The notes under the pieces were generated by a model. That model saw only the letters and a program-made list of their open reading frames with translations, did no database searches and was not told the origin of the DNA. Below, in pieces: positions 15,853-21,046 of a stretch of 43,763 nucleotides of DNA; position 1 is the first letter of the stretch, and the number at the start of each line of letters is the position of its first letter. Made by a program: the position numbers and the translations under genes. The DNA is taken from contig DWZZ01000189.1 in NCBI GenBank assembly GCA_019117305.1, forward strand, positions 1 to 43,763, given 5' to 3'. Source of the DNA: Candidatus Mediterraneibacter merdigallinarum (GTDB lineage: Bacteria; Bacillota; Clostridia; Lachnospirales; Lachnospiraceae).

Positions 15853-16085
15853 ATGGAGCAATACCAACTTGTAATTGCAGAAAAGCCCAGCGTTGCACAG
15901 GCTTTGGCCGCAGTGCTGGGTGCGAAAAAGAAGCAAGATGGCTATCTGGAAGGTAACGGCTGGCTTGTATCGTGGTGCGTCGGCCATTTGGTAGAACTGG
16001 CGCAGCCGGAAGCCTATGATGAAAAATACGCAAAATGGAGATATGACGATCTGCCGATTCTCCCTGCAAGCTGGAAATATCAAGT
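15853..16085 (+). pseudogene. DNA topoisomerase III N-terminal (TOPRIM) fragment
   Basis: QLVIAEKPSVAQALAAVLGAKKK...VGHLVELAQPEAYDEKYAKWRYDDLPILPASWKYQV, then the frame ends at once. Confidence 0.8.
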
Positions 16086-16562
16086 AAGGCCATCAGCTAT
16101 CTAAAAGAACATGACGATATGAGCTATGAGACATTGCAGGCTAAAACCGCCGCGGCTACTTCCAGATTCAACGAATTATCGAAGCAGATCAAAGCAATGG
16201 AAACACGCCTCACGGATAACGGCGAACTGCAAAAACAGATTATCAACTATTCCAAAACACGCGCCGTTTACACTGCATATCGCAAAGCAGGCTACAGCAA
16301 AAAATTTCGCGCCGAACATGAAGCGGACATTCTAATCCATCAGGCAGCGAAAAAATATTTCGACGGGTTGGGCGTACAAAAGCTGCCTACCGTTAAGGCG
16401 CTGCGGGAAGAATATGCCGAAGTGCTGGAGGCAAAAAGAAAAGCCTATGCCGAGTATAAACAGGCACGGGCTGAAATGCGGGAACTGCAAAATGTGCAGG
16501 CCAATATTGACTATCTGCTCGGGCATTCTACCGGCAGAGAAAACGCCAGAGAGCGGCAATAA
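16086..16562 (+). pseudogene. relaxase/mobilisation protein C-terminal fragment
   Basis: Frame open upstream of track start: KAISYLKEHDDMSYETLQAKTAAATSRFNELSKQIKAMETRL...; no catalytic His motif present. Confidence 0.65.
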
Positions 16563-16673
16563 GATACGAAAAGGAGGCATATCTGTGCTTATGGTTTTTC
16601 AGCGTCCGCAGGACGCGCAGCCGTCACCGAAGGGGACGATCTTGGGGGCTTGGGGGTTATCCCTCAACAAGCG

Positions 16674-16722
16674 TTTTGGCGGGTTTTCTACCCGCCAAAA
16701 TCGCAAACATGTACATGTTTGC
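16674..16722. repeat. two adjacent perfect inverted repeats in mobile-element remnant
   Basis: TTTTGGCGGGT-TTTCT-ACCCGCCAAAA (16674-16700) and GCAAACATGTACATGTTTGC (16703-16722). Confidence 0.75.
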
Positions 16723-17021
16723 ATTGCTTGTCGGTATTGTCCCGCGGGATAAAAGCGGTTATACCAAAAGTCAGATTATCCCGAATTATATGAACTATTG
16801 TAGCCCTTTCCTCGTTCTCCCCTCTAATACTACAATTTTCAAGGAAACAAATGGCTATGGATAAGGAAATGAGATAGGTTTTTCCTTCTAAGTATGCGAA
16901 CAGTTTTTGGATCATACGAAATGACGCAACTCTTTTTTGATTGGCGAATGTGGCAATCACATTTTGCTCTAACAGTGAAAAATTCAAACAAGAAGTTCAA
17001 GAAAAATTACGGTTTATGCAC

Positions 17022-17050
17022 TTGTAAAACTACGGATATTCGCATATAAT
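17022..17050 (+). promoter_or_regulatory. sigma-A-type promoter
   Basis: TTGTAA, 17-nt spacer, TATAAT. Confidence 0.6.
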
Positions 17051-17090
17051 ATAGCTTGTATTGTTGTATCAACCAAAAGGGAGGCGGCGT

Positions 17091-17282
17091 ATGAAAGGAT
17101 ATCTTTCCATCCGGGAAATTTCCTATAAATGGGGCGTATCGGAGCGCCGTGTTAATCAATATTGCACACAGGGACGCATTCCAGGTGCAGAGCGTTTTGG
17201 ACGCTCTTGGGCAATCCCGGAAAATGCCGTAAAACCGGCGGATCCCCGGAAAGCAAACCGCACAAAAGAGAAAGACGTATGA
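17091..17282 (+). CDS. small HTH DNA-binding protein (excisionase/MerR-like)
   Basis: MKGYLSIREISYKWGVSERRVNQYCTQGRIPGAERFGRSWAIPENAVKP; RBS GGGAGG before ATG 17091. Confidence 0.75.
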   Translation: MKGYLSIREISYKWGVSERRVNQYCTQGRIPGAERFGRSWAIPENAVKPADPRKANRTKEKDV

Positions 17283-17346: not shown

Positions 17347-18633
17347 TTGAAGTCGTTTTTTAAGAAATTACATATCCGGTTTTTCGACTGGCCTCTGGAT
17401 TTTCGTGTTCGACTGTTTCACATACTGGCCTTTGGCGGCATCGCCATCAGTTTTTTTACAGTGATTATCAGTCTAATCATGGGCATGTGGGAAACCGCAG
17501 GACTGGCTGCCGTTCTGATTGCCTTTTCCCTGGGGCTAATCCTGTTCACCCAGAGGACAGGCAAGTACCAGGCAGCTTACTTCCTCACCGTCACGGTCAT
17601 TTTTATGGTGGTTTTGCCAATGATGTTCTTCACTTCGGGCGGTCACCGCAGCGGCATGCCATCGATTTTCCTTCTGGCTGTACTCTTTACAGTGCTGATG
17701 ATAAAGGGAAAGGCGGCGCTCCTGATTTCCCTGCTGGAAATCGCGGAATATTCCGCCGTGTGCGTTTTTGCCTATTATCATCCGGAATTTGTAACCCATT
17801 ATGAAACAGAAGGCCAAATATTGGTAGACATTATTTTTGCTTTCACCTGTGTCAGCCTGATTTGCGGCGTGGTGCTCTTCTTTCATTTAAGGGAGTATGA
17901 CCGCCAGCGTGAGCTGCTGTATGAGCAGAACGAAAAACTGCGGCGTTACGATGCCTCCCGTTCTGTCTTTCTGACTACCGTATCCCACGAGGTGAAAAAT
18001 CCTCTGAATGCCATCAATCTCTACGCCCGCGACACTTTGGAACTGATGGGCGAGGAAGATCCGGACGCTTTGATGATCCAGAGTAACCAGCAGGTCATCG
18101 AAAAAATGGTGGTGCGCATCGACCGCATTCTGACCGACCTAAAAGATACCGTGGCCATAGAGCAGGGGCGTCTGGCGTTGAACCTTGCGCCCATGCGGCT
18201 TAGTAAACTGTTGAAGGAAGTCTCGGGCACCTACTTCGGCAAAGATGCTTCCGGCGGCAACGAGCTTGTATTGGATATAGACGAAAGCCTACTTCCGATC
18301 AGCGCAGATTACGCAAGGATCGTACAAGTGGTTACAAACCTGTTGTCCAATGCCATACAACATACAAAAGCCGGCAGAATCAGGATTTCCCTCTATAAGC
18401 AGGACGGTGAGCAGATCGTCGTTATTGCCGATAATGGCGAAGGAATGAAGGAGGAGCTGCAGGAGCAGGTATTTAAAGGGTACATATCCTCGGACAAAGA
18501 ATACTGGCGCCACGGCATCGGCCTGTATGTATCCCACCAGATTGTAGAAGCCCATGGTGGCAGGATCTGGATTGAAAGTAAACTGGGGGAAGGCACTACG
18601 GTAACCTTTACCCTGCCTGATGAGGAGAAATAA
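17347..18633 (+). CDS. membrane sensor histidine kinase
   Basis: Multiple N-terminal TMs; HisKA TTVSHEVKNPLNAI; HATPase DNGEGM and GIGLYVSHQIV. Confidence 0.9.
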   Translation: MKSFFKKLHIRFFDWPLDFRVRLFHILAFGGIAISFFTVIISLIMGMWETAGLAAVLIAFSLGLILFTQRTGKYQAAYFLTVTVIFMVVLPMMFFTSGGHRSGMPSIFLLAVLFTVLMIKGKAALLISLLEIAEYSAVCVFAYYHPEFVTHYETEGQILVDIIFAFTCVSLICGVVLFFHLREYDRQRELLYEQNEKLRRYDASRSVFLTTVSHEVKNPLNAINLYARDTLELMGEEDPDALMIQSNQQVIEKMVVRIDRILTDLKDTVAIEQGRLALNLAPMRLSKLLKEVSGTYFGKDASGGNELVLDIDESLLPISADYARIVQVVTNLLSNAIQHTKAGRIRISLYKQDGEQIVVIADNGEGMKEELQEQVFKGYISSDKEYWRHGIGLYVSHQIVEAHGGRIWIESKLGEGTTVTFTLPDEEK

Positions 18634-18636
18634 GCT

Positions 18637-19341
18637 ATGAAAGAGGAAAAACCGATTATTCTTGTGGTGGAGGACGAAACGGATGTGCTGCGAATCAACG
18701 CCAGGATGCTGATACGCCGGGGATATACCGTGTACACAGCGGAAAACTGCCGTCAGGCATACGAGCGGATGGAGGCTCCAACACCCGATCTTCTGATTCT
18801 GGATATCATGCTGCCCGATGGAAGCGGCTATGATATCTGCGAAAGGTTTCGCAGCACGAGCGACCACCCGGTGATCTTCCTAACCGGCAAAGGCGAGACC
18901 TGCGATAAGGTCGAAGGTCTTGGGCACGGAGGCGATTATTATCTAACCAAGCCCTATGATCCGGACGAACTGCTGGCCGTGGCTGATATGCTCATCAAGC
19001 GCCACCTGCAGACAAAGAAAAAGCGCGAACAACTGACGAGAATCGTGAAAGGTTCCCTTGTTCTGGATATCCCAAAATTTAAAGCAACGGTGAACGGTAC
19101 AGATGCTGAACTTACCGCAAAGGAATTTGCGCTGCTTCTGCTTCTGGTGCAAAGCGAGGATAAGGAGGTGCCTCCCCATGAGCTGTATGAAAAAGTATGG
19201 GGTACGCCCTCTGGAGAGGATATCCGCACCATACGGTTTCATATCAAGAATCTACGCAGGAAAATCCACGCGGATGATGCGAATGATTATGATATCGTTT
19301 CCGTATACGGGAAGGGGTATATGTTCACCACGGTGTGCTGA
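18637..19341 (+). CDS. OmpR-type response regulator
   Basis: Receiver PDLLILDIMLPDGSGYDI, LTGKGE, KPYDPDEL; winged-helix IRTIRFHIKNLRRKI. Confidence 0.92.
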   Translation: MKEEKPIILVVEDETDVLRINARMLIRRGYTVYTAENCRQAYERMEAPTPDLLILDIMLPDGSGYDICERFRSTSDHPVIFLTGKGETCDKVEGLGHGGDYYLTKPYDPDELLAVADMLIKRHLQTKKKREQLTRIVKGSLVLDIPKFKATVNGTDAELTAKEFALLLLLVQSEDKEVPPHELYEKVWGTPSGEDIRTIRFHIKNLRRKIHADDANDYDIVSVYGKGYMFTTVC

Positions 19342-19359
19342 AACGAAATCATCCGAAAC

Positions 19360-19407
19360 ATGAGTTTTTCCTAACAATTCAAAAAAAGGAGCTTTTTCTG
19401 CTATGTT
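19360..19407 (+). promoter_or_regulatory. promoter/leader module, copy A
   Basis: ATGAGTTTTTCCTAACAATTC, T-rich block, extended -10 TGCTATGTT; no good -35. Confidence 0.6.
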
Positions 19408-19430
19408 TAATATGGTAGCAGAAAGAATGC

Positions 19431-19470
19431 GCAAAGGCTCAGGGCGGCATCTGCTGCCCTGAGCCTTTGC
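19431..19470 (+). promoter_or_regulatory. 5'-leader hairpin directly upstream of RBS
   Basis: GCAAAGGCTCAGGGCGGCA-TC-TGCTGCCCTGAGCCTTTGC, 19 pairs with one G-U, followed by AAGGAGG. Confidence 0.75.
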
Positions 19471-19486
19471 ATATTAAGGAGGAAGC

Positions 19487-20527
19487 ATGAAAATGAAACA
19501 TCTCAGAGTCTTTACAATTTTGCTCTGCCTGCCCCTTTCCATAACAATTCTTAGTGCCTGCGGCGATAAGGAACCGAACGCAAATTCCAATCCATCGTCT
19601 GCTTCTGGCGGCAGTACGCAGTCTGAAAATGCACAGAATAGCGATGCCCCAGAAGAGGACGCTCCCAGCATAGAGTTTGCAGACATGGCCTGGAGCATTG
19701 ACGGCATAACCTATTCCTTTTACACTGACGGAACACTGGAGGTGACAGACGGCACCGACAGCGTATTTGGCGGGTATGAGTGGGACGGACAGGCCGGGCT
19801 GATCACGATGGACGGTTTCGCCGTGGAGCTGCTATTGGATGGAGAAGGCGATTTGTACATGGAGGGTGAGGACGGCGAATATTACCTCATGACCTATGCT
19901 GGATTTGCCGGCGGAGGAGACCACGAGAGCGGTGGAATGCCGAATCCAGACGATACTCCGGACTATGATCTGGACTATAATCTGGACTATGATACAGATG
20001 ATGACGGCAGCATAGGCTATGAAGCCTTAGACAATGGAAAAATCCGCTTCTATGACTACGATAATAATGTATCAATTACTTACCCTGAATGGATGTTGTG
20101 CATGGAGGATGCGAACCCCGGCACCGTGACTATAACCGACGGCAACGGCGGATATGTAGTAGGCGAAAATATTACCGACATGTATTGGAATTACAGCGGA
20201 AGTGACGATGAAATGATCGCCGCTTATATGAACGAACTTGTTACGGTATATTTTGAGGAATTGTATGGCGATGGCTGGGAAGTCTTTTATCTAAATAATA
20301 TGAGTTCCGACGAAAGCAATCGGATCGCCACAGCCGAGATGAATTTGTACAATGACGACTATGATATCTATATCCGGACTTTGATCTATCATACTGTGCA
20401 GAATGGAGAAAATACGGGCACCGTCATGGCAAAGACTTTCTTTGCTTCCTTTGATGACTATAATGACGGCGGCTCTCAATTTCAGACTCTTTACGACGAG
20501 GTCAGAAACCTGGTTCCTGTACAATGA
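19487..20527 (+). CDS. lipoprotein with Asp/Tyr-rich linker
   Basis: Lipobox LSITILSACGD; linker YDLDYNLDYDTDDDGS. Confidence 0.8.
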   Translation: MKMKHLRVFTILLCLPLSITILSACGDKEPNANSNPSSASGGSTQSENAQNSDAPEEDAPSIEFADMAWSIDGITYSFYTDGTLEVTDGTDSVFGGYEWDGQAGLITMDGFAVELLLDGEGDLYMEGEDGEYYLMTYAGFAGGGDHESGGMPNPDDTPDYDLDYNLDYDTDDDGSIGYEALDNGKIRFYDYDNNVSITYPEWMLCMEDANPGTVTITDGNGGYVVGENITDMYWNYSGSDDEMIAAYMNELVTVYFEELYGDGWEVFYLNNMSSDESNRIATAEMNLYNDDYDIYIRTLIYHTVQNGENTGTVMAKTFFASFDDYNDGGSQFQTLYDEVRNLVPVQ

Positions 20528-20563
20528 GGATGACAGTCCGAAAGCGGGCGAGGAATTCAAAAT

Positions 20564-20611
20564 ATGAGTTTTTCCTAACAATTCAAGAAACGATGTTTTT
20601 TCTGCTATGCT
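20564..20611 (+). promoter_or_regulatory. promoter/leader module, copy B
   Basis: First 21 nt identical to copy A; extended -10 TGCTATGCT at the same 42-nt offset. Confidence 0.6.
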
Positions 20612-20638
20612 GATTACAGTAGCAAAAGGAACGCACGA

Positions 20639-20668
20639 GGTCCGGAGCAGCGTTCACTGCGCCGGACC
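20639..20668 (+). promoter_or_regulatory. 5'-leader hairpin upstream of RBS
   Basis: GGTCCGG-A-GCAG-CGTTCA-CTGC-G-CCGGACC, then GTTGCTTTTTAAGGAGGTGA. Confidence 0.65.
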
Positions 20669-20692
20669 GTTGCTTTTTAAGGAGGTGACCTT

Positions 20693-21046
20693 TTGTCCAG
20701 GATATTGTATGTCGGCACAGATCGCACGATGACTGAGATGACCGGCAGGCTGCTGAAAAGAAACGGTTTTGATGTCCAATGTGCGGTTGGTCAAGAGAAA
20801 GCTTTTGCCGCGATTTGTACACAACAGTTCGCCGTGGTAATCGCAGATTTAGAAGAAAGCGTGTATGACGGGATTCGATTTTGCCAGAAAGTAGCACAGT
20901 ATTCAACAGCAACGAAATTTCTGCTTATTTCAGGAAACGAGAAGGACGAAGAGGCTGCCCTGCTCGGTGGTGCGGACGACTGGCTCAAGAAGCCATACAG
21001 TATGAGGATATTGTACGCTAGGATCCGGGCATTGCTGCGGCTGTAA
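20693..21046 (+). CDS. stand-alone receiver-domain protein
   Basis: VVIADLEESVYDGIRF phospho-Asp region, LLISGN, LKKPYSMRIL; ends after receiver; TTG start after AAGGAGGTGA. Confidence 0.82.
   Translation: MSRILYVGTDRTMTEMTGRLLKRNGFDVQCAVGQEKAFAAICTQQFAVVIADLEESVYDGIRFCQKVAQYSTATKFLLISGNEKDEEAALLGGADDWLKKPYSMRILYARIRALLRL

Follow-up and report, generated by a model that had tools for sequence, protein, structure and literature searches.

The window analyzed here, a 43,763-nucleotide stretch of DNA from Candidatus Mediterraneibacter merdigallinarum, carries a two-component cluster on its forward strand. A sensor histidine kinase gene (17347-18633) is followed by the gene for an OmpR/PhoB-type response regulator (18637-19341) with a receiver and a Trans_reg_C domain, both above the Pfam cut-off (PF00072 and PF00486), by a lipoprotein gene without a Pfam family (19487-20527), and by the gene for a receiver-only protein (20693-21046) with a TTG start that two of the related loci introduced below, L010 and L011, share. 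Further lipoproteins and DUF3137, LemA and DUF2207 proteins are encoded 3' of the receiver-only gene. By eye, the aspartate, serine and lysine of the receiver-only protein are kept at the expected positions, and the protein may accept phosphate. Upstream of the kinase lies an HTH_17-like gene that scores just under the Pfam cut-off, and a consensus-like sigma-70 promoter, TTGTAA-N17-TATAAT (17022-17050, forward strand), is located 5' of the HTH, kinase and regulator genes; the number of such consensus matches is at the level of shuffled sequence. A short open reading frame, located like the HTH_17-like gene within positions 15853-17282, appears to resemble the start of a type IA topoisomerase, and it has no Pfam match.

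Two copies of an intergenic module are found within the cluster, both on the forward strand: copy 1 (19351-19482) precedes the lipoprotein gene and copy 2 (20555-20685) the receiver-only gene. A preliminary description had placed both copies just downstream of the OmpR-type regulator, which holds for copy 1, beginning 18 bp past the regulator stop codon, but not for copy 2, which comes after the lipoprotein gene, approximately 1.2 kb from the regulator gene. An ungapped comparison of block 19360-19432 with block 20564-20636 gives 59 identical positions out of 73, the same value on recounting as that first reported; 100 Markov shuffles of the region yield no ungapped 73-nt match better than 41/73. 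The initial run of identity, originally given as 21 nt, in fact reaches 23 nt, and the block alignment bears out the equal offset of the extended -10 elements, TGCTATGTT in copy 1 and TGCTATGCT in copy 2. With a repeat finder, the module emerges as the top direct-repeat family of the window, and the best ungapped copy pair (19351-19430 and 20555-20634) is 80% identical. The module length of 73 nt proposed earlier is too short, as a gapped alignment of the copies extends through a second hairpin to the Shine-Dalgarno sequence TTAAGGAGG, which is the same in both; the duplicated unit is the whole intergenic module of approximately 130 nt, which starts just past the stop codon of the gene upstream and ends at the Shine-Dalgarno sequence. 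A search of the organism's own assembly (2.41 Mb in 218 contigs, approximately 89% complete) with the first 21 nt, allowing up to three mismatches, returns the two module copies only.

Each copy has the same anatomy of a box, an extended -10, two hairpins and the Shine-Dalgarno sequence. The box, delineated by sequence comparison as the proposed response-regulator site, is GAGTTTTTCCTAACAATTCA in copy 1 (19362-19381) and identical in copy 2 (20566-20585), and the extended -10, recognized by its conservation, occupies 19399-19407 and 20603-20611. Hairpin 1 is predicted by folding at 19393-19426 in copy 1, where it overlaps the -10 and the expected start. Hairpin 2, supported by folding and covariation, has in copy 1 (19431-19470) an 18-bp stem and the tail CATATTAA and abuts the Shine-Dalgarno sequence; in copy 2 (20633-20673), the tail is TTTTTAA and terminator-like. 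The duplication reported initially is present, and the covarying hairpin before the Shine-Dalgarno sequence had been overlooked.

When the regulator is used as a query against 85,462 species genomes, four loci with the cluster are found: L009 in Mediterraneibacter catenae (regulator 99% identical), L010 in a Flemingibacterium MAG (97%), L012 in an Acetatifactor MAG (97%) and L011 in a Lachnospiraceae MAG (77%). A fifth match, in Pedobacter, is 29% identical and does not belong to the same cluster. A single module copy lies directly past the regulator stop in each of the four loci, and the gene that follows it is the receiver gene in L010 and L011 and the lipoprotein gene in L009 and L012.

Across the resulting six copies in five genomes, which amount to only about three independent lineages, two islands are conserved at constant spacing, the box GAGTTTTTCCTWACAWTTC and the extended -10 TGCTATRYY. 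Identity of the box ranges from 85 to 100% across copies. Comparison of L011 with the remaining copies gives an identity of 85% for the box (alignment columns 5-25), 30-38% for the 13 nt after it, 100% for TTTCTGCTAT, which comes after this spacer, and about 45-63% for the sequence past TTTCTGCTAT. The stretch from the box to the -10 contains no indels in 6/6 copies, whereas hairpin 2 does contain indels. Two conserved islands held at a fixed distance across a free spacer point to the architecture of a promoter with an activator site. The -10 itself is weak, with the hexamers TATGTT, TATGCT, TATGCC and TATACT among the copies; TATGCC, in L012, is without the usual last T, and TATACT, in L010, is also found in L044 and L074, two of the more distant relatives considered below. 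No good -35 sequence is present at the -35 position, which the second TTC of the box overlaps. By eye, TTTTC and ATTC (ATTTC in L011) are spaced 10 bp apart within the box, elements too short for statistics.

The distribution of the box follows that of the cluster. Among 58 genomes of the genus, the organism's own included, matches with zero or one mismatch are confined to G000 (two) and G415 (one), all at this cluster, and the other matches, with two to three mismatches, resemble background. A close kinase homologue occurs in these two genomes and in no other member of the genus; since the kinase coordinates of G415 coincide with those of L009, this genome appears to be M. catenae. A DNA search of 397 genomes of the family yields one extra match (G120, L007), which falls within the coding sequence for an unrelated protein and is ascribed to chance.

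The five regulators that accompany the window's box have the helix IR.[IV]RFHIKNLRRKI in common. Three relatives, L044, L070 and L074 (genomes G295, G556 and G476, respectively), encode regulators of 38-42% identity that share a second type of helix and wing, and in these loci the regulator gene is followed by a different, mutually similar box starting GGTYAAAATTYTGC and then by a lipoprotein gene. Their -10 elements (TATACT, TATACT and TACAAT) lie exactly 39 nt from the AATT start of the box. The order of kinase, regulator, box, -10 and lipoprotein gene is that of the window, and the distance from the box to the -10 is similar; these promoters differ from the module in the box (AAAATTYTGCRRCYNTTC, with a repeat period of 11 bp as opposed to 10 bp in the window box), in the recognition helix and in having one copy at the cluster. 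Relatives with still other helices, where they can be scored, have background-level matches only to this second box. In G295, the relatives' box occurs a second time (L088:1500-1780, G295:C41), 38 nt ahead of a perfect TATAAT and upstream of an unlinked lipoprotein gene that is possibly a member of the regulon. A loose search with the relatives' box gives matches in 24 of 392 genomes; beyond the known G476 locus, these look like chance because none has a well-placed -10 together with a lipoprotein gene. Box type appears to be tied to the type of recognition helix of the regulator, across few independent cases. The papers found do not describe the G295, G476 and G556 promoters. L074 likewise has a terminator-like hairpin after the -10: by eye, AAGGCTGTAAAC...GTTTACAGCCTTATTTTT is followed by a ribosome-binding site, an arrangement similar to that of hairpin 2. 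In L071 (about 1260-1310, G516), the regulator gene is followed by a long hairpin, AAAGCCCAAAATTGGCGAAGG / CCTTCGCCAATTTTGGGCTTT, whose loop contains a run of N, either an assembly gap or a withheld stretch.

Taken at a probability of roughly 0.7, our reading is that each module copy is a promoter activated by the cluster's own OmpR/PhoB-type regulator. Activation by this regulator had been suggested from the outset; the constant spacing, the restriction of the box to the cluster, the tracking of box type with helix type and the analogous promoters in relatives support it, with the corrections to extent and context given above. Most regulators of the OmpR/PhoB family bind direct repeats (PMC3960148). 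As in promoters activated by this family, a box with what may be a direct repeat lies upstream of and overlapping the -35 position, the -35 is poor, and the genes of a kinase and an OmpR/PhoB-type regulator lie next to it. Unlike the typical members of this class, the module has short apparent half-sites with a 10-bp period, an extended -10, a terminator-like hairpin between the promoter and the Shine-Dalgarno sequence, and two copies in one cluster; the promoter type would be a known one, here with a duplicated copy and a hairpin leader. From these comparisons we infer how binding, activation and the start site may be arranged: the regulator would bind the 20-bp box at two TTC-containing half-sites that are spaced by approximately 10 bp and the second of which overlaps the -35 position. 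RNA polymerase would use the extended -10 TGCTATRYY, approximately 22 nt further on. Transcription would start inside the 3' side of hairpin 1, and the transcript would then cross hairpin 2. A promoter that starts inside hairpin 1 leaves this hairpin unexplained, which counts against the promoter reading, as do the weak -10, the shortness of the repeat in the window's box and its departure from the period seen in the relatives, and the small number of independent lineages.

Hairpin 2 forms a strong stem in 6/6 copies, in which six pairs are changed on both sides, and the stem is kept by compensatory changes. The T-run that follows it is strong in L010 and L011 and weaker in copy 2, and the tail found in copy 1, which also occurs in L009 and L012, is without a U-tract. 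At the receiver-gene copies, hairpin 2 looks like an intrinsic terminator; a consensus terminator scan calls neither window copy. Since hairpin 2 sits only a few nucleotides 5' of the Shine-Dalgarno sequence, any transcript begun at the proposed promoter has to cross it. It is the only plausible end signal of the upstream gene, and within the leader of the following gene it may serve in addition as a partial terminator or as a stabilizing hairpin: at the receiver-gene copies, with their U-tract, it would act as a partial terminator, and at the lipoprotein-gene copies it would probably be read through. A more elaborate version, which we put forward as speculative, is that the two copies are subfunctionalized gates, each a regulator-activated promoter with a leader terminator. 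Read-through of the terminator would differ between the copies, with the U-tract kept before the receiver gene and lost before the lipoprotein gene, or would be actively controlled, such that one regulator would deliver the lipoprotein and the receiver protein in a set ratio, and the receiver might in turn act back on the kinase.

Hairpin 2 also gives weight to a different interpretation, in which the whole module is an RNA leader, that is, an attenuator transcribed from upstream. The conserved UUUUUCCU and both hairpins would then constitute a switch under the control of a ligand or protein, with hairpin 2 as the terminator and with UUUCCU able to pair with the Shine-Dalgarno sequence. The covariation of hairpin 2, its terminator-like form and its position after the proposed start and before the Shine-Dalgarno sequence, the U-tract in L010 and L011, and the folding of both window copies, which is better than that of all 200 shuffles, are in line with such a leader. 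Hairpin 1 is paired in 93% of cells; however, its 5' arm is invariant and no pairs are changed on both sides, so selection on RNA pairing lacks support there and the two-sided changes are confined to hairpin 2. Similarly, consensus folding predicts the helix between UUUCCU and the Shine-Dalgarno sequence in every copy, but this helix is almost invariant and therefore uninformative on covariation. Unlike leader attenuators, in which a promoter is followed by an intrinsic terminator and then the gene, the module has no alternative antiterminator hairpin that we could find, and its lipoprotein-gene copies are without a U-tract. Rfam 15 gives no match in the window at the gathering score; the low-threshold matches are to microRNA models that fit any long hairpin. 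A constant length from box to -10 across a spacer that is random-like also speaks against an attenuator, and the relatives L044 and L070 keep a box and a -10 without the hairpins. We consider the attenuator improbable.

Hairpin 2 may alternatively be the terminator of the upstream gene only. The lipoprotein gene would then have arrived through a recent tandem duplication, of which the repeat is a neutral by-product, and there would be no second regulated promoter. In L011, hairpin 2 is indeed a textbook terminator after the regulator gene, and the duplication is real and lineage-limited. Nevertheless, the islands are kept at 85-100% against 30-60% in the neighboring sequence, which indicates selection on the box and the -10 that extends to the divergence of L011 from the rest, and the terminator lies 3' of the islands rather than 5' of them; a by-product of this kind is quite unlikely. 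Another alternative, that the box is recognized by a different DNA-binding protein of the mobile element, such as the small HTH_17-like protein encoded 5' of the kinase, or serves as a recombination site, is in keeping with the presence of that HTH gene and with the mobilization genes that adjoin the cluster in L009 and is very unlikely, as box type tracks the regulator helix type and the L011 cluster has the box directly after a transporter-like gene, with no HTH gene just upstream.

The promoter reading provides a target-site hypothesis for an uncharacterized two-component system of gut Lachnospiraceae that is apparently subject to horizontal transfer, and the linkage of two recognition-helix types to two box types is directly testable. 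In a duplicated promoter-plus-terminator leader, copying the switch would place a gene under the control of the regulator, with terminator tails that differ. Near-identical regulators under three genus names, together with NikA/MobC-type mobilization genes beside the cluster in L009 (L009:173-553), suggest that the cluster moves between species, and it looks like the cargo of a mobile element. Plasmid and phage collections returned nothing relevant, a search of viral contigs with the receiver protein found none, and a pattern search of viral contigs hit nine, none encoding cluster proteins, which is approximately the chance expectation. No paper on this cluster was found in the literature.

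The simplest history is an old order of regulator, module and receiver gene, to which the lipoprotein gene and the second module copy would have been added later, between regulator and receiver gene and in the mobile lineage, a direction of gain that we infer from the single-copy loci; loss in L010 through recombination between copies is a possible alternative. In L009, a deletion (L009:3322-3573) begins at residue 29 of the lipoprotein and ends just short of the DUF3137 gene; had module copy 2 and the receiver gene once been present, it would have removed both. After approximately 198 residues, the lipoprotein gene of L012 (L012:1407-3347) is interrupted by an in-frame fusion with a tyrosine integrase reading frame, yielding a chimeric open reading frame of 646 codons.
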